Below, one piece after another: positions 7,287 through 20,127 of a stretch of 64,000 bases of DNA. This DNA is from Paenibacillus sp. OVF10 (GTDB taxonomy: Bacteria > Bacillota > Bacilli > Paenibacillales > Paenibacillaceae). Position 1 is the stretch's first letter; the number at the start of each line of letters is the position of its first letter. The stretch spans positions 868,001 through 932,000 of the forward strand of contig CP094668.1 in assembly GCA_022836915.1 (NCBI GenBank), read 5' to 3'. Under the pieces are notes generated by a model. The model was not told where the DNA came from. It made no database searches and saw nothing but the letters and a program-made list of their open reading frames with translations. A program made the position numbers and the translations under genes.

Positions 7287-7578
7287 TATATGGCCGAACC
7301 CAATCTCCATATAAATAGGTTGGCGCCTGATGGTGAGTTATTTATAACTAAATTTCACAAATTTTAAGGGTATATTCAACCAACCGATTGCATGGATAAT
7401 AGCGCGCAGGAGCAATCCTAGGCTTTCGGTTCTTATTGATACTTACCTTCATTTCTGTTCAATTTCGAAGAAACGGATCAGTTTAAAATACAGAGCTAGA
7501 TTTAAATAGCTTGATTATAAATAGAAGCCAAAAAACGATAAAAATGTTATAATAAAATAGAACAAATGTTCCTGTTTA

Positions 7579-7611
7579 GGTTGTAAAATATTTCTTTGTT
7601 TTCCCTACATA
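7579..7611 (+). promoter_or_regulatory. Putative SigO/RsoA-type promoter, copy 1
   Basis: GGTTGTAA at 7579-7586, 17 bases, then CCTACATA at 7604-7611. It lies 36 bases before the TTG start of the sigma-like gene. The same bipartite motif precedes four other units in this island (16728, and minus-strand copies at 11064, 12311 and 20127). It does not look like a sigma-A promoter. Confidence 0.65.
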
Positions 7612-7647
7612 TGTAGAAAGTATATTTAGAAAGGAGTGGTTTTCGAG

Positions 7648-7984
7648 TTGGAAAATCAGCAAACAGTATACGAGCGATATAGGAAAGAGATTTATCGAAT
7701 TGGTTGGAGAGTGCAGTATAGAGCAAAAAATAAAATATCGTGAGTTACCAATTTTTGAAGATGAGTCAATAAAGGGGGATTTTACGTCATTCTCTGAAAA
7801 CAAAATTATGGCAGAACAACTCATTAGCTCTCTACCAGATATAGGGAATGATGTACTAAGTAAGATTTATTTAGAGGGTTACACAGAATCTGAAGTTGCT
7901 CTTAAACTAAACATTAGTCAGCAGGCGGTGAATAAATGGAAGAGAAAAATGTTGAACCTATTATCTCAGAAAATCAGTTCATAG
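7648..7984 (+). CDS. SigO (YvrI)-like sigma factor, region 4 subunit (one frameshift)
   Basis: Start TTG 7648 follows AAGGAGTGG and gives an N-terminus ENQQTVYERYRKEIYRIGWR. The frame changes in the A6 run near 7724-7729; removing one A gives RAKIKYRELPIFEDES and continues to the stop at 7984. The C-terminal half, LPDIGNDVLSKIYLEGYTESEVALKLNISQQAVNKWKRK, is a sigma region 4 helix-turn-helix. There is no region 2, so the protein alone should not open a promoter. The order with the next two genes matches B. subtilis yvrI-yvrHa-yvrJ, where SigO (YvrI) carries region 4 and its partner RsoA (YvrHa) carries region 2 (established knowledge). Confidence 0.75.
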
Positions 7985-8151
7985 AATTGTTGACTGCTGC
8001 AAAAAACAACGAGCCCGCAGCGATTTTGGAATTATTGAATTTATTTAATCCTGATATACAAAAATTAAGTCGATATATTTATCTACCACCAGAAGATGCT
8101 GCTTCAGAAATTATTACTGAGTTCCTTGAGTTTATTAAAAATGAAAGGTAG
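7936..8151 (+). CDS. RsoA (YvrHa)-like co-sigma subunit
   Basis: A 71-residue protein whose start overlaps the sigma-like gene by 49 bases, suggesting translational coupling. The sequence FIELLTAAKNNEPAAILELLNLF, then IQKLSRYIYLPPEDAASEIITEFLEFI, has the pattern of the N-terminal sigma-like helix-turn-helix domain found in Tn916-type regulators and in RsoA. It is short, acidic and lacks region 4. I infer that it supplies the core-binding or melting region to the upstream subunit. The family call rests on pattern and gene order. Confidence 0.65.
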   Translation: MEEKNVEPIISENQFIELLTAAKNNEPAAILELLNLFNPDIQKLSRYIYLPPEDAASEIITEFLEFIKNER

Positions 8152-8184
8152 CTTATTTGTGATTAGGAGAGGAGGGAAGATCTT

Positions 8185-8502
8185 GTGGAAACAATTTCTC
8201 TTGAGAATTTAGGTGCTTTGATTGGGACGGTTGGATTTCCAAGTTTAATTGCTATTATTCTACTAAGAAGTGTCCTTGGGAATTTTAATCAAAGATTAGA
8301 TGATTTAGATAAAAGATTAATACAACTTAATAAGTCAATTTTACTGGTAGATAAAACTTTAAATAAACTATCTAAAAATGATCTATCGGTGGTGAGAGAA
8401 TTTGAGACAAATTCTTCGGATACTCAAAAAAATGAATATTTAATAAAAGAAGAAGATCATAAACGAGAGTTTCCGTTTATGATCTTCTTCTTAGTTATGT
8501 GA
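8185..8502 (+). CDS. YvrJ-family small membrane protein
   Basis: The product of 105 residues starts METISLENLGALIGTVGFPSL. The VGFPSLIAIILLRS segment is the single membrane helix and short motif characteristic of YvrJ proteins, followed by a coiled-coil (NFNQRLDDLDKRLIQLNK). Start GTG 8185 follows AGGAGGG, 33 bases after the RsoA-like gene, so it is in the same operon. Membrane helix plus charged coiled coil resembles BhlA/UviB-type holins. The last 18 codons lie inside a perfect terminator hairpin (8447-8492), so the natural stop is probably earlier and lost through an indel. Confidence 0.7.
   Translation: METISLENLGALIGTVGFPSLIAIILLRSVLGNFNQRLDDLDKRLIQLNKSILLVDKTLNKLSKNDLSVVREFETNSSDTQKNEYLIKEEDHKREFPFMIFFLVM
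8447..8492 (+). terminator. Strong hairpin terminator overlapping the yvrJ-like 3' end
   Basis: A perfect 19-base stem (AAGAAGAAGATCATAAACG with its complement) and an eight-base loop, with T-rich right arm. It can act in both directions, serving the convergent gene remnant at 8504-8923. Confidence 0.85.
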
Positions 8503-8503
8503 T

Positions 8504-8923
8504 TTAATTTGTTGTAAAACCATTAAAGAGCCAACCATCATTATCTGAGCGAACAAAGTCGAAGTTTAACTCAATGTTACCTTCAGAACCTTTAGTGGTG
8601 ATAACTTTAGCTAACGCTAGCATAAAGTGATTTTTATCTTTTTGGTTGTATCCTCTAAATTCAAGTTCTTCCAAACTTATTTCGTTAAGAAAGCAACTTC
8701 TGAGGTAGATTCTGCGTTCTTGAAAAGTATGGAATTGTTTTGTTGTGATACTTCAACGTCTGAGGAAGATAAGGATCAATATTACGCGTAGTCCTTAGTT
8801 TCCATAGCAGAAATTATTTTAAAAGTCAGATTGAGTGGTGGTAAAGATCCAGAAGCAGTAGGATGGCGGATACACGGACCTCAATAATTGTATTGGAAAG
8901 TATGATAAAATCCGGGTATTCAC
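8504..8923 (-). pseudogene. Frameshifted hypothetical protein (NTF2-like fold possible)
   Basis: On the minus strand the frame upstream of the stop at 8504-8506 reads LEFRGYNQKDKNHFMLALAK, then GSEGNIELNFDFVRSDNDGW and LFNGFTTN. Upstream, in other frames, come NNSILFKNAESTSEVAFLTK and LTFKIISAMETKDYANIDPYL, which join if single bases are corrected in short A or T runs. A GTG at 8923 follows a GGTGAG site. The order, a helix with METKDYA followed by a charged beta sheet ending GW.F, resembles small NTF2-like proteins such as the lipoprotein at 18636. At least three shifts are needed, so it may truly be dead. Confidence 0.5.
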
Positions 8924-9019
8924 CTCACCTCTTTCTAATGTACAAAATAATTTTGATTTTTTTGTAACTTATTTGGGTATAAATCGTTTATATTGATAAA
9001 TGGGAGGGATTTCAAGCAT

Positions 9020-9730
9020 ATGAAAAAAAGATTATTTTCTCAATCTTAACTACAGTTACAATTATGTCAGGAGTACTCGGATCAGCGTATTCAGCCGGTG
9101 TGATCAAATTGAACGTCAATGGAAGCAACTTACAAACTGATGTGGCTCCAAAAATGGACAAAAACCGTGTCATGGTACCCATTAGTTTTGTCTCCAAAGC
9201 CTTAGGTGCATCTGTCTCTTGGAACAATAAAACACAGACCGTTTCCATCAATACAACCGGTATCCCTTACGAAAATGTGTGGGATGAGAACATGAAAGAT
9301 GTTGGACCTTATCAATTAGCAAGTATAAATAACACGGTACAGGTTTTCCTTACTGGAGTTGATATTGGAGATGAAGATCTCTTAAAGAAATCAACAACCA
9401 CACTAGATTTGGATCGCTTGAAACAAGAACATTCTTCTATGGGACCAACCATGTTGTCTACTAAAATTCTGGATATGAAAACCCTTAAAAAAATCTAAAT
9501 GGCCAAAGACCAGAGTATTTGGTCAGAGTAGGCATCCAAACGGGGGAGATGAACTTAAAGTAAGTCATTGGGATCTGACCGTAACGTTGGCTCCAACCGT
9601 CGATAATGGAACGACCATTTCTACTGGAGGAAAAATGGAATACGTAGTCAGCAAACGCGAAGTTGTAAAATCAACTGCAGTGGATGTTCAACGCGTATTT
9701 CCTGGATACACGCTAGGAACATCTAAATAG
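9020..9730 (+). CDS. Secreted protein with copper amine oxidase N-terminal (stalk) domain, frameshifted
   Basis: ATG 9020 after GGGAGGGAT begins a signal peptide once one A is added to the A7 run (MKKKIIFSILTTVTIMSG, then SAYS). Residues 30-80 are a copper amine oxidase N-terminal stalk domain: IKLNVNGSNL, then KNRVMVPISFVSKALGASVSWNN. The frame breaks again in A runs near 9488 and around 9505-9550, after which the fragments PEYLVRVGIQTG and LKVSHWDLTVTLAPTVDNG lead to the stop at 9730. This domain usually anchors or displays proteins at the Paenibacillus surface. The C-terminal part is not recognised. Confidence 0.65.
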
Positions 9731-9737
9731 TGAAGGC

Positions 9738-9783
9738 AAAAGAAGCCGAGGCGACTAATTATGAGTCGTTTCGGCTTCTTTTC
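9738..9783. terminator. Bidirectional terminator
   Basis: The stem AAAGAAGCCGA with GGCGACT pairs with AGTCGTT and TCGGCTTCTTT around a short loop. It lies between two convergent genes and can end both. Confidence 0.85.
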
Positions 9784-9799
9784 TAGAGTTCCAGAGTTC

Positions 9800-10897
9800 C
9801 TATTTGGTTTGGAACGCAATCAAAGCTGGGGTTGATAATCCTCCTGCTGATGCTGCAGTAATGGTCCGAGTAAGACTTTGCCCTGCCGATAATTTGACCT
9901 CAGCAATAAGGACACCTTCCTGATATTGAATTTTACCCGCGACTTTATCCGGAGGACTAGCTAGATTGGGTACTTTGTATGTTACATTGTCTCCGCTCCA
10001 TTTCACGGCTCCACCGTAAGGTTTTACGCGAGATCCCATGTAGATGCTAATTGTTTTTTCGGCGGTTGTTGGATTTGAAAGATTGACAGTGAGCGTATAT
10101 TTCACACCATAATGACCTTTGTTACTGGCTGCTGCGTTCGTACTGTCGTACGAAGCCGCTTGGGTCATCAAGTTATCGCTCTGTCCATTACTCATATTGT
10201 AGTATCTCCATCCACTACCTGCAGTGTAGCTTACACTACTTGCAATTTCAGCGAAATCCCAGGAACCACGAGGATGGACTGAATCATTACCACCTGTGAA
10301 GTAGGAAATAATCGGGGTTTGGTTCAGTCTCAGATCTGCTGTGGTACTTGTTGCAGCAACCGAACGCAATCGATATGACATAGCAGTAGACGTCGTATTG
10401 GTGACCGTAAATTCGATGAGGCCACCAATCAACTGGTTATTAGGCACGATCCACTCTTTAATAACCCCCAGTTTACCCGCTGGTACAGAGGTATCGGTTG
10501 GCGTGATTGCATCCATGGTGTCACCCACCAAAGCAGCTGCAGTACATCTACCCTGTTCAACGAACGAAGTAATCGGCGCAATGGTACTTTTTACGTTATG
10601 AATGGAGTATGCGGAAGCATTATTGTTACCGATTGTGATCCCATACTTCATGCTGGAGCCTCTATTATTAAGGTGCCATACAAACATGCGGTATTTTACA
10701 GAGGTTTTGCCGGAAGCAGTATCATGCCATAACGTACAGTATCCATCCTTAAATGGCGTATTTGCATTGATGGTTTCATGGTTATCCGAAATAACAAACC
10801 GAGTATCTGTTTTCGCTTTAGTTCCTACCAGTTGGTTTGGTGCAGACTCTGGAACAACAAATGAGACTTTGGTTTTCGGAATTTGATTACATGACAT
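9800..10897 (-). CDS. Hypothetical 365-residue beta-rich protein, no signal peptide
   Basis: ATG 10897 (MSCNQIPKTKVSFVVPESAP) is chosen because GGGGATAT precedes it; an in-frame ATG at 10945 lacks a site. The protein is intact, rich in Thr, Ser, Asn and Gly, and has repeated beta-strand patterns (FVVPESAPNQLVGTK, WIVPNNQLIGGLIEFTVTN, KYTLTVNLSNPTTAEKTISIYMGSRVKPYGG). It looks like a surface or structural beta-sandwich protein but has no secretion signal and no recognised domain. The SigO-type motif at 11032-11064 lies about 135 bases upstream. Confidence 0.8.
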   Translation of the reverse strand: MSCNQIPKTKVSFVVPESAPNQLVGTKAKTDTRFVISDNHETINANTPFKDGYCTLWHDTASGKTSVKYRMFVWHLNNRGSSMKYGITIGNNNASAYSIHNVKSTIAPITSFVEQGRCTAAALVGDTMDAITPTDTSVPAGKLGVIKEWIVPNNQLIGGLIEFTVTNTTSTAMSYRLRSVAATSTTADLRLNQTPIISYFTGGNDSVHPRGSWDFAEIASSVSYTAGSGWRYYNMSNGQSDNLMTQAASYDSTNAAASNKGHYGVKYTLTVNLSNPTTAEKTISIYMGSRVKPYGGAVKWSGDNVTYKVPNLASPPDKVAGKIQYQEGVLIAEVKLSAGQSLTRTITAASAGGLSTPALIAFQTK

Positions 10898-11599
10898 AGA
10901 GATATCCCCTTTATATAGATGTTTTCCACAATTGTTTAACTTCATGGGATAAAACTGTCTAGTGTATCCCTCACTAGTGCAGCTATGAGTAGAAGTTAAT
11001 CATTCTGTGAGAAGAGTTATTCACTCTTCACTATGTAGGAAATTATCTAAGAAGATATACAACCTAATTGATATTCTTTCGTAAAGTATTTTTAGTGTAT
11101 GCCATCACCTTGGTAAGAAGCACAAGTGAAATGAGGAATTGAGTGTAAAGATATAACAGAAATTAAAGAAGAAGCCGACCTACTTGATGGCTGAATTTAT
11201 TCAAACAACCAGCACAGTAGTTCCAACTTGCGGTATAAAGAAATGAGATGGATCTGGTGAGAAGGGATTTAAATTTGAGTTTGTGCGGACCTTTAGTATG
11301 GTTGGCAACCGTTTTAATTGCTTCAAGATAATAACATCCCAATCAAGGGTATGAAGGGACCTAAATAGTTCGATCTGTAAACTGTACAAGAGAAACAAGA
11401 GAATTTTTGTAGTATTCTTAATGCTATAAAATAGTTTTGAGGTAGTTATAGCGTGTAAAATGCCTAGAACCAAGCGGCCAGCATATATCCAGCGACAAAT
11501 GGTTTTGAAGGAGACAGTACATCAGCATGGATGCGGAAACGTATATATAGAAGAAATAAAGGAAAGCTGTGCAGCCTTAAGTTGAAAAATCTAGACACG
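10898..11599. other. Intergenic region without a convincing gene
   Basis: Apart from the promoter motif at 11032-11064, I see no open frame with good start and codon use. A plus-strand stretch near 11459-11560 reads MPRTKRPAYIQRQMVLKETV and may be a trace of an old gene, but stops interrupt it on both sides. Confidence 0.5.
11032..11064 (-). promoter_or_regulatory. Putative SigO/RsoA-type promoter, copy 2
   Basis: Read on the minus strand: GGTTGTAT (11064-11057), 17 bases, CCTACATA (11039-11032), then GTGAAGAG downstream. It points to the 365-residue protein gene. The downstream bases are also shared with the amidase copy. Confidence 0.65.
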
Positions 11600-11643
11600 A
11601 CACAAAAAGATTAAGAACGATTAGGTTCTTAATCTTTTTGTGT
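11600..11643. terminator. Strong terminator after the amidase gene
   Basis: A 19-base perfect stem (ACACAAAAAGATTAAGAAC and its complement) sits immediately past the minus-strand amidase stop. Both arms are A/T tracts, so it may work in both directions. Confidence 0.85.
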
Positions 11644-11649
11644 TATGAA

Positions 11650-12221
11650 TTAAATAGGAGGGAGGGTCATGGCAAAGCTGTTAATGCCGTTCGCAATTAC
11701 GCGGGCACACGTTTGTTTATTGGCAACCAACATATTGCGATCCGATGCTGTATCAATAAACAGCATTTTAGGTAGAATAGCCCATGCTCGGGTGTTCTTA
11801 GGATCGATAACATGAATATTGGATCCGCCACGTTGGCTCGGTGCTTTCTTCACCCCACGATTGGTCTTGCCCAGTGCGGCAACCAGTGCATTGTTGACGG
11901 CGTTAGCCAATGAAGTGGTGTAGCTGCTTGCATTATCGTGGGTCCATGTTTCGATACCTGTACCCCCACCGGCATTAATGTGGAGACTTACATAAATGTC
12001 GGCCCCGAAATTGTTGGACCCCACAGCGCGATCCGGGTTTTCTGGATAGGTATCAGTGGAGCGACTCATCTGGACCGTAGCGCCGAGTTTCTCCAGTTCG
12101 GTCTTTAGAAATTTACCGATATCGAGTACGATTGCTGCCTCTGTGTACCCGCCACCTACAGCCCCTGGGTCTTTTCAGCCATGTCCGGGGTCAACGAAAA
12201 CCTGTAACCATTAAGTGTCAT
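11650..12221 (-). CDS. N-acetylmuramoyl-L-alanine amidase (Amidase_3), probably defective
   Basis: Read from ATG 12221 (MTLNGYR, after AGAGAGGA), one base change near 12200 gives VFVDPGHG, the zinc-binding start of an Amidase_3 domain. The next codon is TGA (12175-12177), then KDPGAVGGGYTEAAIVLDIGKF with the second zinc ligand Glu, and DIYVSLHINAGGGTG with the third His. At the usual catalytic Glu near the C-terminus (LPE.LFID) this protein has LPKMLFIDTASD, a Lys. There is no signal peptide. An in-frame stop, a frameshift and the Glu-to-Lys change together suggest decay, though the first two could be sequence errors. The enzyme would cleave the peptide from peptidoglycan. Confidence 0.75.
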
Positions 12222-12278
12222 AAAAGAATGTATCCTCTCTGCTAATCATTTATTTGAAGTGGTTTATTTCCTCTTCAC

Positions 12279-12311
12279 TATGTAGGAAAAGTAAAGTGTC
12301 GTTATACAACC
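12279..12311 (-). promoter_or_regulatory. Putative SigO/RsoA-type promoter, copy 3
   Basis: Minus strand: GGTTGTAT (12311-12304), 17 bases, CCTACATA (12286-12279), followed by GTGAAGAGGAAATA. It lies about 58 bases before the amidase start. Confidence 0.65.
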
Positions 12312-12567
12312 CTAATTTAAAAATTGTCCATACAATGGCCTAAGCGCTTTATGTAAAAAACTAAACTACTGATCCTAAAAGGATAAAAGTATTATTGTGA
12401 ATAGTTACATTCAAAATAACTCAGCACAATCTGTGCTCAATATTTAACAAAACATGTAATATACTTGATCTAAAGTGATGTATATCGTATGAAAATAAGT
12501 AATTTAATGTAATTATATTATTGAAGATAGAATTAATTTTTACATACTAATAAGGAGGAGATCTTTA

Positions 12568-12885
12568 ATGATGATGAAAAAGAGTTGGTTTTCTTTTCTA
12601 TTGGTATTGGTTCTGATGGGGGCATTTTCAAGTCAGGTGTTTGCTGCGAATGACCAAACAGGGACTGTTGTTACAGGTGGTACGAAAGAGAGTAGTCCAA
12701 TTATGGGACAACATCAATACGGGGAACTGGAAGCTGTTCTCCATAGCGGGAACTATAGGGTGAATGTAACACTACAGGAAATTAAATCAGGCACTTGGGT
12801 AAGTATGTATACACTAGTTGCAACTCCTTCAAACCCTAAAGTTAAAACACACTATTATCTAGAAGGGGTAAGCAGTATAGACTAA
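12568..12885 (+). CDS. Small secreted protein of unknown function
   Basis: ATG 12568 follows AAGGAGGAG. The first 27 residues are a classical signal peptide (MMMKKSWFSFLLVLVLMG, cleavage after SSQVFA). The mature part of about 78 residues is predicted beta-rich (GELEAVLHSGNYRVNVTLQEI, VSMYTLVATPSNPKVKTHYYLEG) and resembles a small extracellular beta sandwich. Unlike the neighbours with the SigO-type motif it has a signal peptide. No family recognised. Confidence 0.75.
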   Translation: MMMKKSWFSFLLVLVLMGAFSSQVFAANDQTGTVVTGGTKESSPIMGQHQYGELEAVLHSGNYRVNVTLQEIKSGTWVSMYTLVATPSNPKVKTHYYLEGVSSID

Positions 12886-12952
12886 TAGTTGAGACTTTGA
12901 GTAGCGGTTGGGGTCACCTTTATAATTATATACCTTAATTAACTTTAGTTCT

Positions 12953-12982
12953 GGCAGTCGACAATTTCTCGACTGCCTTTTT
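12953..12982 (+). terminator. Rho-independent terminator
   Basis: GGCAGTCGA pairs with TCGACTGCC across a short loop, followed by five T residues; it ends the small secreted protein gene. Confidence 0.85.
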
Positions 12983-13412
12983 AAGTCCCTCTACGAAACT
13001 ACGTTATACCTACATCCTAATTAACGTTATCTATAATTGAATCATTCAATGACTGATACATAATCACCTAAAGTTTCTTTCTATAAATTTACAACTGACT
13101 TATCCTAATGTATACTAAATCTATTAAAAGATTCATTAATTTTCTTTGTCACATTAAATGAGACAAAGAGGGAGTATGCTAAGTTATTAGCCTATAAATT
13201 AAGGGCTTGTATTAGGAGACTTAACACGGAACACACGTGTATTTAAGTCTCCTTTTTGCGTCCAAAAACAGGAGGATTGTCTTTGCAACATGCAATCACA
13301 ATCAAAAGAAATTAGGTTTTATTTGTAAACTAGTAAGAACCACATGCAATCCCAGCCGGCTGGCGGAGAAAAAACCTCCCGCCTACCGCGGGAGAGTATG
13401 GAGGTAATAAAT
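12983..13412. other. Intergenic region with two hairpins
   Basis: No gene is seen. A terminator-like hairpin lies at 13214-13257 (AGGAGACTTAA with its complement, then TTTTT) with no obvious gene before it, and a GC-rich hairpin at 13377-13395 (CTCCCGC/GCGGGAG type) sits just upstream of the ribosome binding site of the LPD1 gene, where it could affect translation. Confidence 0.6.
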
Positions 13413-14312
13413 ATGAATCAGCTTTCACTTTTCGACTATTTTCCAAATCAAAATGCAGTCTTATCTGCAAATGCTCTAGTACCTGCAGAAACAAAGGGTT
13501 GGGCTCATAGGAACTCGAAGAATTCCTATGTTTATGATGTCGGGGAAGAATTACTTGGTGCAAAAAAACACTTGAGTCAACAATCCAGAGTTGATTGGTC
13601 CAAGATTGAAGAGAATCCTTCGGTGGCATACCAAATGGTCTGCAAGAATGAATTACTAAAGGATTTTGATCTAAGAAGTCTACAGGCTGATGGATTTACT
13701 TCTGAAGCAGCCTTCGCGATTAAATTGATATGGGCACGAGTGTGCCAGCATCCGGAGGATACACCACAAAAGCGGGCGGACTATATTAAGGGCATAAGAG
13801 CACTACAGTCCATCTTGTCCGGAGCCAAGGATGAGGATCGCATGAAGAAAGCTTTTCAGATGCTTAAAGAAGCTTTGTATCAAGCTCGACTTTCAACCTA
13901 TTCCCATAGAATTGATGAGCAACCTGAATTGGTTCGTTCTCAATTTTGGCTCGCATTGGGAGATCGATTTCAATCACTGTTCTATAGTACTCGGCGCGGC
14001 CGTCCTGGCTTGTACAACTTGATTCAGAAAGCATTTTATTCTGAACAGGGTAAGGACTGGAATTGGCTGAACACAAGTAGAGTGAAAAAGACAACCATTA
14101 AAGAGAATAAAGAAAAGTGGGAACGGCTCGTTCCTGAAGAGGTAGTCCGAAAATCCAATGAAGCATCTGGAGTTAATAAACCGGATGACCTAATCGATAT
14201 CTTTGGTGTTAGAGGGGTTCAGTTTGGTAATTGGGTTCAGGATGTCGCTGGGAGGTATCATGTTTTAAGTTGTGGCCACGCCCTAAACGATCTGGTGGGC
14301 CTGTTAAAACCA
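13413..14312 (+). CDS. LPD1-domain protein, C-terminally truncated at a junction
   Basis: ATG 13413 after GGAGGTAA gives MNQLSLFDYFPNQNAV. The protein is mostly helical and near residue 265 contains DIFGVRGVQFGNWVQDVAGRYHVL, the signature of LPD1 (large polyvalent protein-associated domain 1), found in phage and plasmid proteins. After CGHALNDLVGLL the frame continues as KPMLLQPLVPGEIKK, which is the N-terminus of the following DNA ligase, not LPD1 sequence. The usual continuation of the LPD1 domain is missing, so a deletion seems to have joined the two genes. The role is unknown; the family is associated with mobile elements. Confidence 0.75.
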
Positions 14313-15174
14313 ATGTTATTACAGCCATTAGTACCTGGTGAGATTAAAAAGATTGGAAGTCCAGCATTAAGTGGGACGGATTTAGAATATTAATTCACTA
14401 CGATAATGGTAGGGTACGTGCATATACAAGACATGGAACTGAAGTAACTGAACGCTTTCCGGAGCTTCAAGAAAAAGTTATCAGTTAAAACGGCCATCCT
14501 GGATGGAGAATGCATCGCTTTTGATGTTACTCAACCAAAAGATCAGCCACCGAAGATCTGGTGGGACGATGCAATGACCCGTTTTCACACGAAAAAGTCT
14601 ACCGCCGTCAAATCAATCTGTAAAACCTTAAAAGCTCATTTTCCGATATGGGACGTCTTGTGGGTCGATGGCCAGTCGGTAACAACGATGACATTTGATA
14701 AGAGGCGTGAACTTCTTCAGACGTTGTTAACCCCATCTGAGACAATATCCATAACACCTTTGTATGATGATGGTCTCCAGCTCTTCTTAGGAGTAAAACA
14801 ACAAGGCTTAGAGGGCATAGTTCAGTACAACAGTGATGCGCCATATTTTTTAAATTCAAGACCCAAGAATGTAATTACAAAAATAAAGGCATATCAATAT
14901 GTAACTTGCCAGGTCTCAGCAACTCGAAAAGGAGCATTTGGCTGGGGACTACAATTGAATGGTAAATACGTGGGGGTACTTGAATTTCCACCACATAGAG
15001 ATATACTATCTAAGTTTCATCATGTATCAAAGAAACTTTGTAAGAAATGAGAATAAGAATTGGATTTATCTTGAACCAGTTTTAAGTTGCAAAGTTCGAT
15101 TTCAGTGCTTTACCCAAGATGGTAAACTCAGATCACCAATAATAGAGGAACTAGTTGATTTAACTGTAGCATAA
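14313..15174 (+). CDS. ATP-dependent DNA ligase, YoqV type (three frameshifts)
   Basis: The ligase starts at KPMLLQPLVPGEI. Adding one A in the A5 run near 14345 gives KDWKSSIKWDGFRILIHYDNGRVRAY, containing ligase motif I KWDG with the adenylated Lys. One further indel near 14490 joins it to KTAILDGECIAFDV, containing the DGE motif. Later come LEGIVQYN (motif IV) and an oligonucleotide-binding part that continues, after an indel near 15045, as NKNWIYLEPVLSCKVRFQCF to the stop at 15174. Length of about 285 residues fits SP-beta YoqV-like ligases, which seal nicks using ATP. No free ribosome binding site is visible because the gene is fused to the LPD1 frame. Confidence 0.75.
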
Positions 15175-15248
15175 CGAGGTGCGGAGCCTGTGAGACTAAC
15201 AAATTCCCACCTGTACCTATAACGAATTCTATAGTGAGGTGTATTCGT

Positions 15249-15915
15249 ATGTGCGGCAGATTTACAATTATAGATCCCATTGAAAGCATAATGGAACGAT
15301 ACTTGGCTTCAGACGTTAAAGGCTTTGATTATCGTCCAAATTATAATGTTGCCCCTATGCAGTTTATCGCGTCAATCATTGCAACCAGTAATGGTAATCG
15401 CTTAGGTTCACTCCGGTGGGGCTTGGTACCATCATGGGCTAAAGATGACAAAATCGGATCTAAGATGATAAATGCACGAGCTGAAACGCTAACCGAGAAA
15501 CCTGCATTTAGGCGGCTGGTCAGTACCAAGAGGTGCATCATTCCCTGTTCAGGTTTTTATGAGTGGAAAAAGGATGACTCCGGAAAGCAGCCAATACGAA
15601 TCTTAATGAGAGATGGCTCCATATTCTCCCTTGCCGGTCTGTATGACACTTGGTTGGATCCGGACGGAAACAAATTATCAACGTGTATTATCACCACCGA
15701 GCCTAATATTCTTATGGCTGAAATCCACAACCGTATGCCGGCCATTATTAGACCGCAAGATGAAGCAGAGTGGGTTAAATAGGGAAACGGACAAAAAAAG
15801 CGTTTTAGGACTTCTTAGACCGTTTGCATCCGAAGAAATGCGTGCATACAAGGTTGACTCTTCAGTAGGTAATGTTAAGAACAATGATAAAGAGTTAATC
15901 CGAGAAGTTTCATAA
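15249..15915 (+). CDS. SRAP-domain protein, YoqW/YedK type (one frameshift)
   Basis: ATG 15249 gives MCGRF with Cys2, the residue that crosslinks to abasic sites after Met removal. Further hallmarks are YRPNYNVAPM, WGLVPSWA, NARAET, PCSGFYEW (catalytic Glu) and EIHNRMPAI (catalytic His). The frame closes at 15781, but removing one G from the GGG near 15773 gives EWLNRETDKKSVLGLLRP and extends to the natural C-terminus at 15915, about 221 residues. SRAP proteins shield abasic sites in single-stranded DNA. Its position after an ATP-dependent ligase matches yoqV-yoqW in phage SP-beta. Confidence 0.88.
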
Positions 15916-16279
15916 AGAAATAGTAAAACGTTAGGACGGCGATAGTCGTCCCTATTTGTCTGTCTCCGGAAGTATGAGCCCCCTTGGCACGTACCGCGGA
16001 TCGTGGCCGAGTAAGTAAGGGAGAGACTCATGTCACGCTGTTTTCATCCGATCTGAAAGATTGGTCTTGACGATAAACTTAATATCTATTCAGAATCTTT
16101 GCTGGAATTTTAGAATGATATCCCTGAGAGAATGTTTTTCAGTGCATAATTTTAATTCATCGGATTAAATATTCCTCAAAATCAATATCTTTGCCAAATA
16201 GGAAATTTAAAGCGAAAATCAGAGATTAAATAGTTTTTTTCGGTTGAAAAATGATACAATAACAATTGTATTACATTTT
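15916..16279. other. Intergenic region with a hairpin
   Basis: The near palindrome GGACGGCGATAGTCGTCC at about 15932-15950 can act as the terminator of the SRAP gene. The rest is AT-rich and carries no open frame that I can support. Confidence 0.55.
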
Positions 16280-16696
16280 ATGGGAGAGGTGAGATATATT
16301 ATTACTAAAAAAACTTTTCAGCGTCTACTGATCTCATTCGTAAGCTTATTATTCCTTTCAATTATTGCAATGTTGATTATATTCTACATGGATGATAAGC
16401 AAGGAGCTGAGCTTCCGTTAGCTCTATCATTAGGAGAATCGATGATTGTATTTTTACTAGGTTCTTTGTTTATGTTGTATCCAATTCTTATTTTAGCTTT
16501 TGCAGTACCATTTTTAATTCTTAAGTATTATGAAGTGAACATAATGATTCGCGCTCTGGTTTACTTGGTTACAGGCGTGATTTGTATGATTACACCTACT
16601 CCTATTGAGAAATATGATTATTTCTATATAGTGATCGCCCTAATCTTTGCTTTGATCGACTTCACCTGGTCAAGAACAAGTATGGCGAAAGACTGA
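16280..16696 (+). CDS. Hypothetical membrane protein, four helices
   Basis: The open frame includes four clear membrane helices (LLISFVSLLFLSIIAMLIIFY; LGESMIVFLLGSLFMLYPILI; IMIRALVYLVTGVICMI; YFYIVIALIFALIDF) and a short positively charged N-terminus, ITKKTFQR. The start is uncertain: ATG 16280 and GTG 16289 flank a GGGAGAGGTGAG sequence that could be the ribosome binding site of a rarer downstream start. No family is recognised. It stands alone between the SRAP gene and a phosphodiester-glycosidase gene. Confidence 0.65.
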   Translation: MGEVRYIITKKTFQRLLISFVSLLFLSIIAMLIIFYMDDKQGAELPLALSLGESMIVFLLGSLFMLYPILILAFAVPFLILKYYEVNIMIRALVYLVTGVICMITPTPIEKYDYFYIVIALIFALIDFTWSRTSMAKD

Positions 16697-16727
16697 TGAT
16701 AGATACCAAACTTTTTAATAATAATGT

Positions 16728-16761
16728 GGTTGTAACTCTCTCTTAATTTTCACCCTATATA
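16728..16761 (+). promoter_or_regulatory. Putative SigO/RsoA-type promoter, copy 4
   Basis: GGTTGTAA, 18 bases, CCTATATA, 37 bases before the start of the phosphodiester-glycosidase gene at 16799. Spacing is one base longer than in the other four copies. Confidence 0.6.
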
Positions 16762-16798
16762 TGCAAGGGTAAAATTAAAAAATGAGGAGAGAAACAAA

Positions 16799-17521
16799 AT
16801 GGCAAACTATGAATACTATTCTTGGAAACACATTCCTGCTGCGATTGTGACACAACACATCATTAAAACTCCGTTAAGCAACATTAAATCGGAAACGGTT
16901 CTTCGGCCATTGAATAAGACCACATATGTGGGCATTAATGGCGGATTTTTCGAAGCAACCCAAGGTTATAGCGTCCCACCAACGGGAGGCTCCTCGATTA
17001 TTTACGTCAGTGGTGAAGAAAACCAGACTGTTACCTATGAAGGTAGAACTCTTAAAAAGAACTATTTGTCTAATACAGGGGTAAATGGTAACGAAATCTC
17101 CAGAAAGTCAGCTGTGTTTTATCGAGATATGAATGGCTCACTTAAAGCCACACATCTGTATGTTAAAAACGTAAATGAGGTTTATCAATACTATCCGAAA
17201 TCAGTAGTAGAGATGGTGATTGGAGGTAATGATTACAATCTCGAGAGTTGGGGAGGGTCCTCAATCAAAGGAGAGCTTGGATATTATCTGTCAATTCCAA
17301 GAACTATCTTGGCTTGGAAAAACAACGATGCATACCTAATCGCAGGTCAGGGGAGCGTACCATTCATGCGGGATATCATGGATGATCTCGGTTTGAATGC
17401 TGTAAACTCGATTATGTTGGACGGATCGGGATCAACCCAAATGCAAATTGGTAATCCGAAAAGTAATCCAGTTGACAGTAACCGTTATGTCTATAACATG
17501 ATTCGGGTGAAAACAACCTAA
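16799..17521 (+). CDS. Phosphodiester glycosidase-domain (NAGPA/DUF2233) protein, no signal peptide
   Basis: ATG 16799 follows GAGGAGAG. The 240-residue product has the NAGPA-domain pattern: YVGINGGFFEAT near residue 40, VIGGNDYNL in the middle, and SIMLDGSGSTQM near the C-terminus, with a final YNMIRVK strand. The family includes enzymes that remove N-acetylglucosamine from phosphodiesters and sporulation or cell-wall relatives. No signal peptide is present, which is unusual because family members normally act outside the cytoplasm. A paralogue lies on the other strand at 19295, and both have the SigO-type motif. Confidence 0.85.
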   Translation: MANYEYYSWKHIPAAIVTQHIIKTPLSNIKSETVLRPLNKTTYVGINGGFFEATQGYSVPPTGGSSIIYVSGEENQTVTYEGRTLKKNYLSNTGVNGNEISRKSAVFYRDMNGSLKATHLYVKNVNEVYQYYPKSVVEMVIGGNDYNLESWGGSSIKGELGYYLSIPRTILAWKNNDAYLIAGQGSVPFMRDIMDDLGLNAVNSIMLDGSGSTQMQIGNPKSNPVDSNRYVYNMIRVKTT

Positions 17522-17544
17522 TAGCTACAATACCCTTGCTCATT

Positions 17545-17574
17545 AAATAAGCTGCCAACATGGCAGCTTATTTT
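17545..17574 (+). terminator. Rho-independent terminator
   Basis: AAATAAGCTGCC pairs with GGCAGCTTATTTT around a five-base loop, 24 bases after the glycosidase stop. Confidence 0.9.
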
Positions 17575-17736
17575 CTGTCGAAGGCAAGAGCAGACCAAAT
17601 TCAGACTGGAGACAGTTTAATGAAAGTCACATTCTTCATATTTCAGTAAGCTCGAAGTTTCCAGAGCTGTTTATCGAGAGTGATAATCAAATTACATTCG
17701 CTAGTTCAGTAAACTATAGATCCACTTTGATTAGTA

Positions 17737-18413
17737 GGAATACACATCTGGCGATGACCGAGGAACGGATTATTACAGCGGCCGTCATTACAACAGGAGA
17801 GAAAAATGATGGTAAACAACTGCAGGAATTAATCCAAAAAAGCAAAGCAGCTGGCATGCAGGTGAAGACCGTCATTGGAGACGCAGCTTATTCCGAAAAG
17901 GATAATATTGTATATGCTAATAAAAATGATATTGAGCTTATAGCGAAACTCAATCCACTCATTACGCAAGGCAAACGTAAGAAGGAAGAGGGGTTCCTGT
18001 TTAATAAGGACGCAAGGTTGTACGTGTGTCCAGCTGGGCATACGGCCCTCCGTAAGGCACGGCAAGGCAAGAAAGGTGTGAGCGCAAACCAAACAGACAC
18101 CTATTATTTTGATGTAGAGCGATGCAAGCGTTGTCCACTAAAGGAAGGTTGCTACAAAGAAGGTGCCAAAAGCAAGACGTATTCCGTTTCGATTAAATCC
18201 GAAGAACACTCCGAACAAATGGCATTTCAAGAGACAGAATATTTCAAAAAGAAATCCAAAGAGCGTTACAAAATTGAAGCGAAGAACAGTGAACTTAAGC
18301 ATGGACACGGGTATGATACAGCCACATCCTCGGGTTTGCTTGGCATGCAATTACAAGGTGCAATGACCATATTTGCTGTAAATTTAAAACGAATATTGAA
18401 GTTAGCAGAGTAA
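17737..18413 (+). pseudogene. IS1182-family transposase, 5'-truncated
   Basis: Only the C-terminal part of a DDE transposase remains. The visible motifs are THLAMTEERIITAAVITTGEKNDG, VIGDAAYSEKDN (second catalytic Asp), VCPAGHTA, the Cys-rich CKRCPLKEGC, and YKIEAKNSELKHGHGYDTA with the final catalytic Glu, followed by the standard LQGAMTIFAVNLKRI end. The N-terminal half including the first Asp is missing; the sequence to the left of about 17737 is unrelated. It is therefore an inactive insertion-sequence remnant. Its right end probably lies at or near the hairpin at 18440-18495. Confidence 0.85.
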
Positions 18414-18439
18414 GGAGAACAGAGAACGCAGCGAATAAT

Positions 18440-18495
18440 GCCAAAAAAGAAGACATTCATCCCAATACTTGGGTGTGAATGTCTTCTTTTTTGGC
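18440..18495 (+). terminator. Strong hairpin at the IS remnant end
   Basis: A perfect 20-base stem, GCCAAAAAAGAAGACATTCA with its complement, 16-base loop, and T-rich right arm. It can terminate the transposase transcript and shield the minus-strand lipoprotein gene. Confidence 0.85.
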
Positions 18496-18635
18496 TAAAT
18501 GTTATCCACTACTTGAAAAGCCAAGTTCTTCAGTGGCCTCCTCTAACGTTGGCTCCTTTTAAGTTTGCCTCATGGGAATAGCATTAATCACCACATGTTC
18601 AAATGTAGCGATTTAGCGGAAATCCGCAAATATGA

Positions 18636-19165
18636 TTAATCAATGGTGTAGATGGACCACATACCTTCATTATTCATCCGGATTGCGTACATCATTTTAA
18701 CTTCTTCAATCGTTTCTGTATTCGATTCTAAACGTTCCCCAAGGACTGTAACATGCACTTGGTTTTTGATTGATTCACTTTTTTCAATGCTTTCAATTGT
18801 TGAAAAATGATATTGGAATTCTTCACTATAATACCCATCCAAAGCATCAGCCAATTTTTCGGTGACAAATCCGGATCGGTACAAATTGTGGTCATGCTCA
18901 ACAAGTCCTTTTAAGTTCAATTTAAGTACATCGAGAAGAGGGGATTGGTCTTCCGTCAGGAGGATTCAGCCTCTTTAAAATCAATATCAATAGCTGGTTT
19001 AAAATTTGCTGAAGACTCCGTTTCAGCCTCAGGAGTTTTAGAAGTATCAGGTAATGAATTCTGAGTTGTATTCGTTGGTTCTTCGGTTGGTGAGTTTGTA
19101 TCAACACAGGCCGTAAGAAGAATAAATGAAGTTAACAGCGCTGTTAACGCAAATGATTTTAGCAT
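18636..19165 (-). CDS. Lipoprotein with NTF2-like domain (one frameshift)
   Basis: From ATG 19165 the signal peptide MLKSFALTALLTSFILLTAC ends in a lipobox LTAC, followed by a Thr/Glu-rich linker typical of surface lipoproteins. The frame stops near 18960; removing one base in TCCTCC gives LTEDQSPLLDVLKLNLKGLVEH and joins to the domain SGFVTEKLADALDGYYSEEF, ending YAIRMNNEGMWSIYTID. The helix-plus-sheet pattern with a terminal W.I suggests an NTF2-like or DUF4878-type fold. After repair it has about 177 residues. Function is unknown. Confidence 0.7.
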
Positions 19166-19294
19166 GATATCCCGCCTTTAAGTAATTTATATAGATAAAG
19201 ACGCTACATTGATGGAAAAAGTTACAATTTATTATTCAAAAGGAATAGGAAAAAGGAAATCATAAAGCGATTTCCCTTTGAAAAACCGAAGTGA

Positions 19295-19993
19295 TTAAGA
19301 CCAAGTTGCCCCGTTGACAGTGATGATACTGTACACAAGACGAGGTCCACCAGAAGTGTAGTTTGTACCATCTGGTTTTTTAGCACGAATTTGTGCCGCC
19401 GTACTGCCATCCAGCATAATAGCATCTGTACACCCGAGAGACTTCATGATACCTCTTGCTTCTAATGGCGTACAATCATTAGCCTTACTCATTACAGCCA
19501 AAACAATTTTACCACCTTTATATCCGATGGCAGCACGTTTGTTGTTGCCGAAATCAACCCCGCCTTTTTCATCTTTTACCAGGTTATTGAATGCAGTTTC
19601 GCTTGAAACAGTTTCTTGAAGTTTGAGACTAATGCCTCCAATAGCCCATTCAATCCAACTAGCAGGGGTGGACATGTCAGATAATTTGTTAATCACGAAT
19701 ACATTTGCTACTCGGGAAGTACCGGCATTTGGCCTCGCACAAACCAGCGTGCCCCGTTTATACGATGCATTTGTAGAAGCATAGTTCCTTACCGGGCTAC
19801 CTCCTTTAGAAACTGCAATGCCGTGGACATAACCAGTACTGTCATCAAAGAAAGTGCCATTAATGCCATACTTAGTGGAAGCGGTCAGGTTTTTACCGCC
19901 CAAATCCTCAATTTGAATCGTAGACATGTCCGCTTCAATGTAATCCACCGTAATTCCATTCCATGTCGTTTGTCTGTACTTTGCATCAGCCAT
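19295..19993 (-). CDS. Phosphodiester glycosidase-domain protein, second copy, no signal peptide
   Basis: ATG 19993 follows AAAGGATGAT. The 232-residue product has the same architecture as the protein at 16799: YGINGTFFDDSTG near residue 45, AIGGISLKLQE in the middle, AIMLDGSTAAQI near the C-terminus and a final YSIITVN strand. The similarity is in motifs; the sequences are otherwise divergent. No signal peptide is present. A SigO-type motif lies about 100 bases upstream. The two paralogues flank the IS remnant and the lipoprotein gene. Confidence 0.85.
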   Translation of the reverse strand: MADAKYRQTTWNGITVDYIEADMSTIQIEDLGGKNLTASTKYGINGTFFDDSTGYVHGIAVSKGGSPVRNYASTNASYKRGTLVCARPNAGTSRVANVFVINKLSDMSTPASWIEWAIGGISLKLQETVSSETAFNNLVKDEKGGVDFGNNKRAAIGYKGGKIVLAVMSKANDCTPLEARGIMKSLGCTDAIMLDGSTAAQIRAKKPDGTNYTSGGPRLVYSIITVNGATWS

Positions 19994-20094
19994 TTATATC
20001 ATCCTTTTTCCTATATTTTGATGAGGTGAAATCGCGGGAATCAACTTGAAGATTGCCATTCCCCGACAATCTCTGTTGCCGATTTCCTTCTCAC

Positions 20095-20127
20095 TTAATA
20101 GGTAAAATGGAAAGACATCATACAACC
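20095..20127 (-). promoter_or_regulatory. Putative SigO/RsoA-type promoter, copy 5
   Basis: Minus strand: GGTTGTAT (20127-20120), 17 bases, CCTATTAA (20102-20095), followed by GTGAGAAGGAAAT, which resembles the bases downstream of copies 2 and 3. This is the most divergent copy in the second block. Confidence 0.55.

Follow-up and report, generated by a model that had tools for sequence, protein, structure and literature searches.

A predicted two-subunit sigma factor with a LexA-type box and a five-copy putative promoter motif in Paenibacillus sp. OVF10

Results

The split sigma operon

The DNA analysed here, referred to as the window, is a stretch of 64,000 nt from Paenibacillus sp. OVF10 (contig CP094668.1, positions 868,001 to 932,000), in which a bipartite motif, GGTTGTAW and CCTAYATA separated by 17 or 18 nt, had been noticed in five copies around the genes of a sigma factor divided over two proteins. 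According to their sequences, the sigma genes form a pair of the SigO/RsoA type, with a yvrJ-like gene downstream (Table 1). The original prediction had overlooked both this type of factor and the LexA box at the sigma operon. For comparison, a SigO profile search provided 52 named loci from relatives, 50 of which were retained as pairs (L056 and L057 were left out, as they are not sigO-rsoA pairs); 30 further loci, L058-L087, stand outside the box and motif counts given below.

Table 1. Positions of the predicted promoter elements, motif copies and genes in the window
Feature	Position	Strand	Remarks
Extended -10 TGTTATAAT of the predicted sigma-A promoter P1, sigO operon	7545-7553	+	sequence
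LexA (SOS) box GAACAAATGTTC	7560-7571	.	sole strict match in the window
Motif copy 1	7579-7611	+	27.3 bits; predicted autoregulatory promoter (SigO/RsoA type) before sigO-rsoA-yvrJ
sigO-like gene (sigma region 4)	7648-7984	+	TTG start at 7648; frameshifted in the assembly; PF08281/PF04545; intact relatives P0003, P0004
rsoA-like gene, 71 aa	7936-8151	+	PF12645 (E = 1.6e-5); overlaps the 3' end of sigO
yvrJ-like gene	8185-8502	+	small protein with one predicted transmembrane stretch (hydropathy); PF12841 weak
365-aa target	9800-10897	-	all-beta predicted fold, family without known function; 22 homologues; predicted local distance difference test (pLDDT) 93.5
Motif copy 2	11064-11032	-	16.4 bits; before the 365-aa protein gene
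N-acetylmuramoyl-L-alanine amidase (Amidase_3)	11650-12221	-	PF01520 (E = 4e-20) on 12069-11650; interrupted near the 5' end as assembled
Motif copy 3	12311-12279	-	12.4 bits; before the amidase gene
150-aa hydrophobic predicted membrane protein	16244-16696	+	upstream of NAGPA target A; PF13800 (Sigma_reg_N) E = 0.0049, below cut-off
Motif copy 4	16728-16761	+	spacer 18; 32.1 bits; before NAGPA target A
Phosphodiester glycosidase (NAGPA) target A	16799-17521	+	PF09992 (E = 8e-8)
Phosphodiester glycosidase (NAGPA) target B	19295-19993	-	PF09992 (E = 5e-10)
Motif copy 5	20127-20095	-	2 mismatches; 15.6 bits; before NAGPA target B

The open reading frame (ORF) of sigO at 7700-7984 matched PF08281 (E = 5.8e-6) and PF04545 (E = 2e-5) above the cut-off, and no sigma-2 family match was listed for either piece of sigO. 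The PDB profile matches of SigO were to sigma region 4 and to some other helix-turn-helix proteins. The rsoA-like gene is the only match to PF12645 in the genome, and the B. subtilis control also matched this family; a PDB sequence search with RsoA returned no useful match. The overlapping layout of the two genes was found in 47 of the 50 relatives, where rsoA starts 34-46 nt before the end of the sigO match, and was not evident in the remaining three (L019, L035 and L039). For YvrJ, the PF12841 scores were below cut-off both in the window (E = 0.037) and in L123 (E = 0.0025), and the homologues at sigO loci keep a Gly-Phe-Pro core. The window yvrJ ORF runs into a terminator-like inverted repeat (8450-8502) and encodes 105 aa, compared with 83 aa in L006; its stop may have been displaced by an indel.

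The motif in the window and the genome

All five copies of the motif were present where they had been described, copies 1-4 in exact form and copy 5 with two mismatches. They had been said to lie 30-140 bases before start codons, which agrees with the measured distances of 36, 134, 57, 37 and 101 bp for copies 1-5, all in the correct direction. The genome scan that had been proposed as a check was run with GGTTGTA-N15..19-CCTAYATA over the single contig of 7,243,271 bases, with the reversed pattern as a control. Four exact matches were returned, all in the window and every one preceding a gene, and the control gave none; in its exact form the motif is confined to 9 kb of the 7.24-Mb genome. 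No exact copy was found in 100 dinucleotide shuffles of the window. When up to three mismatches at one spacing were allowed, the genome gave 280 matches, fewer than the 550 of the reversed control, and the motif therefore carries meaning only when it is exact or nearly so. With its two mismatches copy 5 does not stand out on its own and, because the relaxed motif is uninformative genome-wide, what speaks for it is its context, namely the NAGPA gene that begins 101 bp further on and a score of 15.6 bits. The additional bases reported to be shared downstream of copies 2, 3 and 5 were recovered in part: GTGAAGAG is present in copies 2 and 3 and GTGAGAAG in copy 5, and GAAAT occurs in copies 3 and 5 and is missing from copy 2.

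The motif in relatives

A promoter matrix was trained solely on the 150 nt upstream of the sigO genes of relatives, and was used to score the window copies. It converged on tGGTTGTAa and CCCTAtaTAt, mostly 16-17 nt apart. A motif above 12 bits precedes sigO in 34 of the 50 loci, 19-80 bp from the gene; one of the 34, at L034, is probably spurious as it overlaps the LexA box. Away from the training promoters, in the 50 named loci and the window, there were 17 held-out matches of at least 20 bits, whereas 40 matrices with permuted columns averaged 0.5 matches in total (maximum 4); at 15 bits there were 44 against a permuted mean of 7.8 (maximum 16). A Markov control (one copy of 53 sequences) gave one match against 49 in the real sequences. 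Sixteen of the 17 held-out matches stand approximately 18-114 bp before yvrJ or a recurring cargo gene, a placement that is partly circular because the cargo families were partly picked by a preceding motif. The 17th, in a Bacillus metagenome-assembled genome (L052), adjoins a YvrJ-like ORF that was itself found via the motif; at this locus the motif scored 18.3 bits before sigO and 21.7 bits beside yvrJ.

Across the genus, 75 genomes (including that of OVF10) were compared for a sigO match at E ≤ 1e-20 and for the exact motif. The motif was present in 22 of the 36 genomes with sigO (45 matches, reversed control 13) and in 8 of the 39 without sigO (10 matches, reversed control 22), an association with a Fisher p of 4e-4. 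Leaving out the OVF10 genome, 21 of 35 sigO genomes carry the motif, with 41 matches.

The LexA box and the predicted promoter P1

The Firmicutes LexA consensus is given as CGAACRNRYGTTYC, with the core GAACn4GTTC, in the available part of PMC2248561. A box of this Firmicutes type, GAACAAATGTTC, is present in the sigO operon promoter and ends 7 bp before motif copy 1. For 43 of the 50 sigO homologues, GAACN4GTTC is found in the 150 nt before the gene, compared with 15 occurrences in the remaining 908 kb of the same loci. Both elements are present in 30 loci, and 23 of these have a gap of 7 nt between the box and GGTTGT. Of 43 homologous loci, 24 have a TATAAT-like element no more than 16 nt before the box. 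The motif, the split sigma genes and the box recur in dozens of relatives.

The same core precedes lexA in 26 of 26 relatives with a located lexA start (29 were examined, and the start was not located in three). It also stands before the lexA of this genome (L148), where GAACN4GTTC was found twice in exact and twice in degenerate form, and strict LexA boxes precede a Y-family polymerase gene of this genome. In eight loci (L042, L044 and L046-L051) the box is kept and the auto-promoter is absent, and in seven of these a motif of 16-22 bits stands before the 365-aa cargo ORF, from which a linear chain of LexA, sigO and cargo would follow. Several of these eight loci show TTGGAA-17-TATAAT upstream of the box.

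The cargo genes

The 365-aa family is also found in the sigO flanks of L042-L044, L046-L051 and L054. An intact homologue of the amidase, L112, is 74% identical over 12204-11653, has the motif upstream and matches five PHROG endolysin families, and NAGPA target A has a 91% homologue in L007 that is likewise preceded by the motif (18.7 bits). In relatives, the motif (strong or weak) was found before genes for Amidase_3, L,D-transpeptidase-like (PF03734), NAGPA, DUF3238, DUF4127, 365-aa family and YvrJ proteins, and also before a phage-type lysozyme (PF00959, 18.3 bits) and a 152-158-aa family with hydrophobic stretches. At least one cargo family occurs in the fetched flanks of 38 of the 50 loci, in four of them YvrJ only, and this count shares the partial circularity mentioned above. 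Ranked by loci, the 365-aa family (10) is followed by DUF4127 (8) and DUF3238 (7).

A signal-peptide-like N-terminus was absent in 24 of 26 cargo proteins in a hydropathy scan, which replaces a signal-peptide predictor only crudely and had one usable positive control, the second having a broken frame. None of the cargo of the window shows such an N-terminus, its interrupted amidase being assessed through homologues. Of the DUF3238 proteins, two begin with a short hydrophobic segment, and a membrane stretch was seen in three YvrJ proteins. Sequences similar to sigO were found in seven plasmid records, including a Paraclostridium sordellii plasmid (H7), and two plasmids carry sigO-rsoA, two tandem motifs approximately 100 bp apart and a 152-154-aa cargo gene. 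No relative of P0004 was found in viral contigs. In a phage collection P0004 had one weak sigma match and NAGPA target A had none; this collection therefore gave no indication of a phage module.

Discussion

The motif and the split sigma genes had been interpreted as an autoregulated alternative sigma factor with a local regulon, and this is still the best reading, as the motif tracks sigO across genomes and precedes most sigO homologues. On sequence grounds, it is very likely that the motif is the promoter of this factor, and a LexA gate on the sigO operon is likely. The reading as a whole, in which the five copies are promoters of a SigO/RsoA-type factor and a LexA-gated sigma operon drives four genes, is probable. 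LexA bound at 7560-7571 would hold the sigO operon off, and DNA damage would start sigO-rsoA. SigO/RsoA could then amplify its own operon via copy 1 (promoter P2) and switch on the four neighbouring genes. Because the box lies between the sigma-A-type -10 of P1 and the SigO -35 of P2, 7 bp from the latter, one LexA dimer would be expected to block P1 and crowd P2. LexA binding, sigma specificity and the order of events are what we infer here, and a cascade from the DNA damage (SOS) response through SigO/RsoA to the cargo appears likely.

The kind of factor is known from SigO-RsoA, and the probable SOS gate and the cargo are what is new. The SigO system of Bacillus subtilis is induced by acid. 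As far as the available text of the sources goes, SigO-RsoA (YvrI-YvrHa) of this species likewise has its sigma-4 and sigma-2 functions on two proteins (PMC8103513, PMC10028694), and it transcribes oxdC-yvrL, yvrJ and its own operon (PMC8103513), so that yvrJ and the sigma operon are among the targets in both cases. The differences are the LexA box at the sigma operon here and the cargo, which consists of NAGPA, amidase and the 365-aa protein, with no oxdC-type gene among the targets listed. The RsiO/YrvL regulator (PF14184) also had zero matches in this genome, with a positive B. subtilis control. Group V sigma factors of the UviA and TcdR type differ in carrying sigma-2 and sigma-4 in one chain, which are here encoded by two genes.

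The UviA/UviB/Bcn5 system is induced by UV. In the part of PMC9527704 that was available, the Bcn5 cassette of Clostridium perfringens comprises the sigma factor UviA, the BhlA-family holin UviB, an amidase and a bacteriocin without a Sec signal. An alternative sigma factor, a small membrane protein, an N-acetylmuramoyl-L-alanine amidase and cargo without a signal peptide are thus shared with it, whereas the sigma factor here is split and YvrJ is not detectably BhlA-like. As YvrJ has no BhlA profile match, the likeness to Bcn5 is one of plan and not of descent. The box sequence in the promoter is shared with the Firmicutes LexA/SOS regulon, and the difference is that a sigma pair is the predicted SOS target, forming a second tier. 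Among the literature matches listed, none linked SigO/RsoA with LexA; publications in which 'SigO' co-occurred with LexA were rejected, as the word was part of author names.

Several observations weigh against the LexA-gated reading. An auto-promoter is lacking in 16-17 of the 50 loci and a box within 150 nt of sigO in 7 of them, and no GAACN4GTTC box was found in the plasmid stretches L179, L180 and L181 (two of them partly read). The strict RNRY core is not matched by any of the listed lexA boxes, and the genome has 31 distinct places with a strict box, several of which are within long ORFs. The locus counts are not independent because the loci are related and some are nearly identical, and the circularity of the 16 motif placements and the 38 cargo loci counts here too. 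Muralytic cargo is a minority, present in 4 of the 50 loci (L011, L012, L015 and L033). For the 365-aa protein, which has a confident model, the PDB matches listed had a query template modelling (TM) score of at most 0.20 and a root-mean-square deviation (rmsd) above 15, and no fold was assigned; toxin names among these matches were dismissed as evidence, and a PDB sequence search with the family gave no useful match. The idea of YvrJ as a BhlA holin found no support by profile, as hhalign of both alignments, which were shallow, returned no match. PF10960 had no match in this genome, and a BhlA-family holin was not found by this profile.

It is unlikely that this is an ordinary SigO/RsoA regulon without the SOS response, triggered by acid or envelope stress like its B. 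subtilis counterpart, with a palindrome that either lacks a function or is the binding site of a different regulator. An ordinary regulon would be consistent with the B. subtilis targets named above and with the loci and plasmid stretches that lack the box; however, the box corresponds to the documented Firmicutes consensus, as quoted above, its core stands before lexA in relatives, it persists in the eight loci without an auto-promoter, and neither a PF14184 match in this genome nor an oxdC-type gene among the targets listed was found. It is very improbable that the motif belongs to a different local regulator, as its operator or promoter, and adjoins the split sigma genes by coincidence. The link between motif and factor does come from sequence, and the -10-like CCTAYATA is unusual for sigma-A, but the motif follows sigO across genomes, keeps a similar position before sigO in most loci and has a promoter-like bipartite form, with mostly 16-17 nt between the scored blocks. 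Another improbable explanation is that the island is decaying, with sigO and the amidase as pseudogenes and the motifs as relics in this strain. The sigO frameshift (at an A-run at approximately 7725-7730, from a DNA comparison with L006), the frameshift and in-frame TGA of the amidase, and a transposase ORF (PF13751, 17727-18413) between both NAGPA genes would fit decay. Against it, lexA (L148) is also in pieces in the same assembly, the completeness of which is 89%, and an intact SigO protein, P0003, is 99% identical over 91% of the query. Furthermore, the two contig ends (1-36700 and 7206391-7243251) are 99.2% identical along 36.7 kb, and their alignment has 143 gap openings, or one in approximately 257 nt. 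This match is probably an untrimmed circular overlap that gauges the indel error rate, in which case indel errors are frequent in the assembly; a true terminal duplication is the possible alternative. Both sigO and the amidase are thus more probably broken by assembly errors than by decay.

The role of the cargo is the weakest step of the LexA-gated reading. As the likeliest role we tentatively propose a lysis or bacteriocin-type cassette that is induced by the SOS response and has YvrJ as a candidate partner in the membrane. A release role like that of UviA/UviB/Bcn5 can only be inferred because the commonest cargo families have no known function and just some of the cargo is muralytic. That the cascade is real and its cargo serves envelope repair, matrix or another surface function instead of lysis or bacteriocin release comes close to an even chance. 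No killing or lytic function is known for the three commonest families, and the glycosidases and the L,D-transpeptidase-like protein could remodel the wall; on the other hand, an endolysin-type amidase and a phage-type lysozyme are among the cargo, most of the scanned cargo proteins lack a signal-peptide-like start, and plasmid cassettes hold a single cargo gene under tandem motifs.

To our knowledge, one experimental case of a two-subunit sigma factor has been described. In the dozens of natural variants found here the promoter code can be read, DNA damage is the probable input and the output can be exchanged, and with them the recognition of the promoter by each subunit, the AND-gate idea and the SOS-driven release of leaderless proteins could be tested directly. 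The motif set could supply promoter parts for circuits such as the SigO-RsoA gate (PMC10028694, available in part). It is doubtful, and offered as speculation, that SOS-gated split-sigma cargo cassettes are widespread in Paenibacillaceae, combining an AND gate formed by the two sigma chains with a positive loop and delivering interchangeable leaderless killers or lysins that leave via YvrJ-assisted lysis or transport, as an independent counterpart of UviA/UviB/Bcn5.

Additional observations

A DNA-ligase-like gene (PF01068) and a gene for an SOS-response-associated peptidase (SRAP, PF02586) lie inside the island at 14574-15782, and neither has a strict LexA box or a motif of its own. The 150-aa membrane protein upstream of NAGPA target A has its sole relative among the searched loci in L115, near a motif-bearing NAGPA gene, and is a possible candidate regulator. 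The model of the 155-aa cargo family, with a pLDDT of 57.5, was too poor for a structure search. SigO-type motifs in tandem, approximately 100 bp apart before one cargo gene, were seen in L179 (11500-11637), L180 (10855-10981), L117 and L129, and these stretches are highly alike in sequence between the plasmids and other genomes. In L017, identical tandem copies of the 155-aa cargo gene are found at 10561-11845, each with its own motif.

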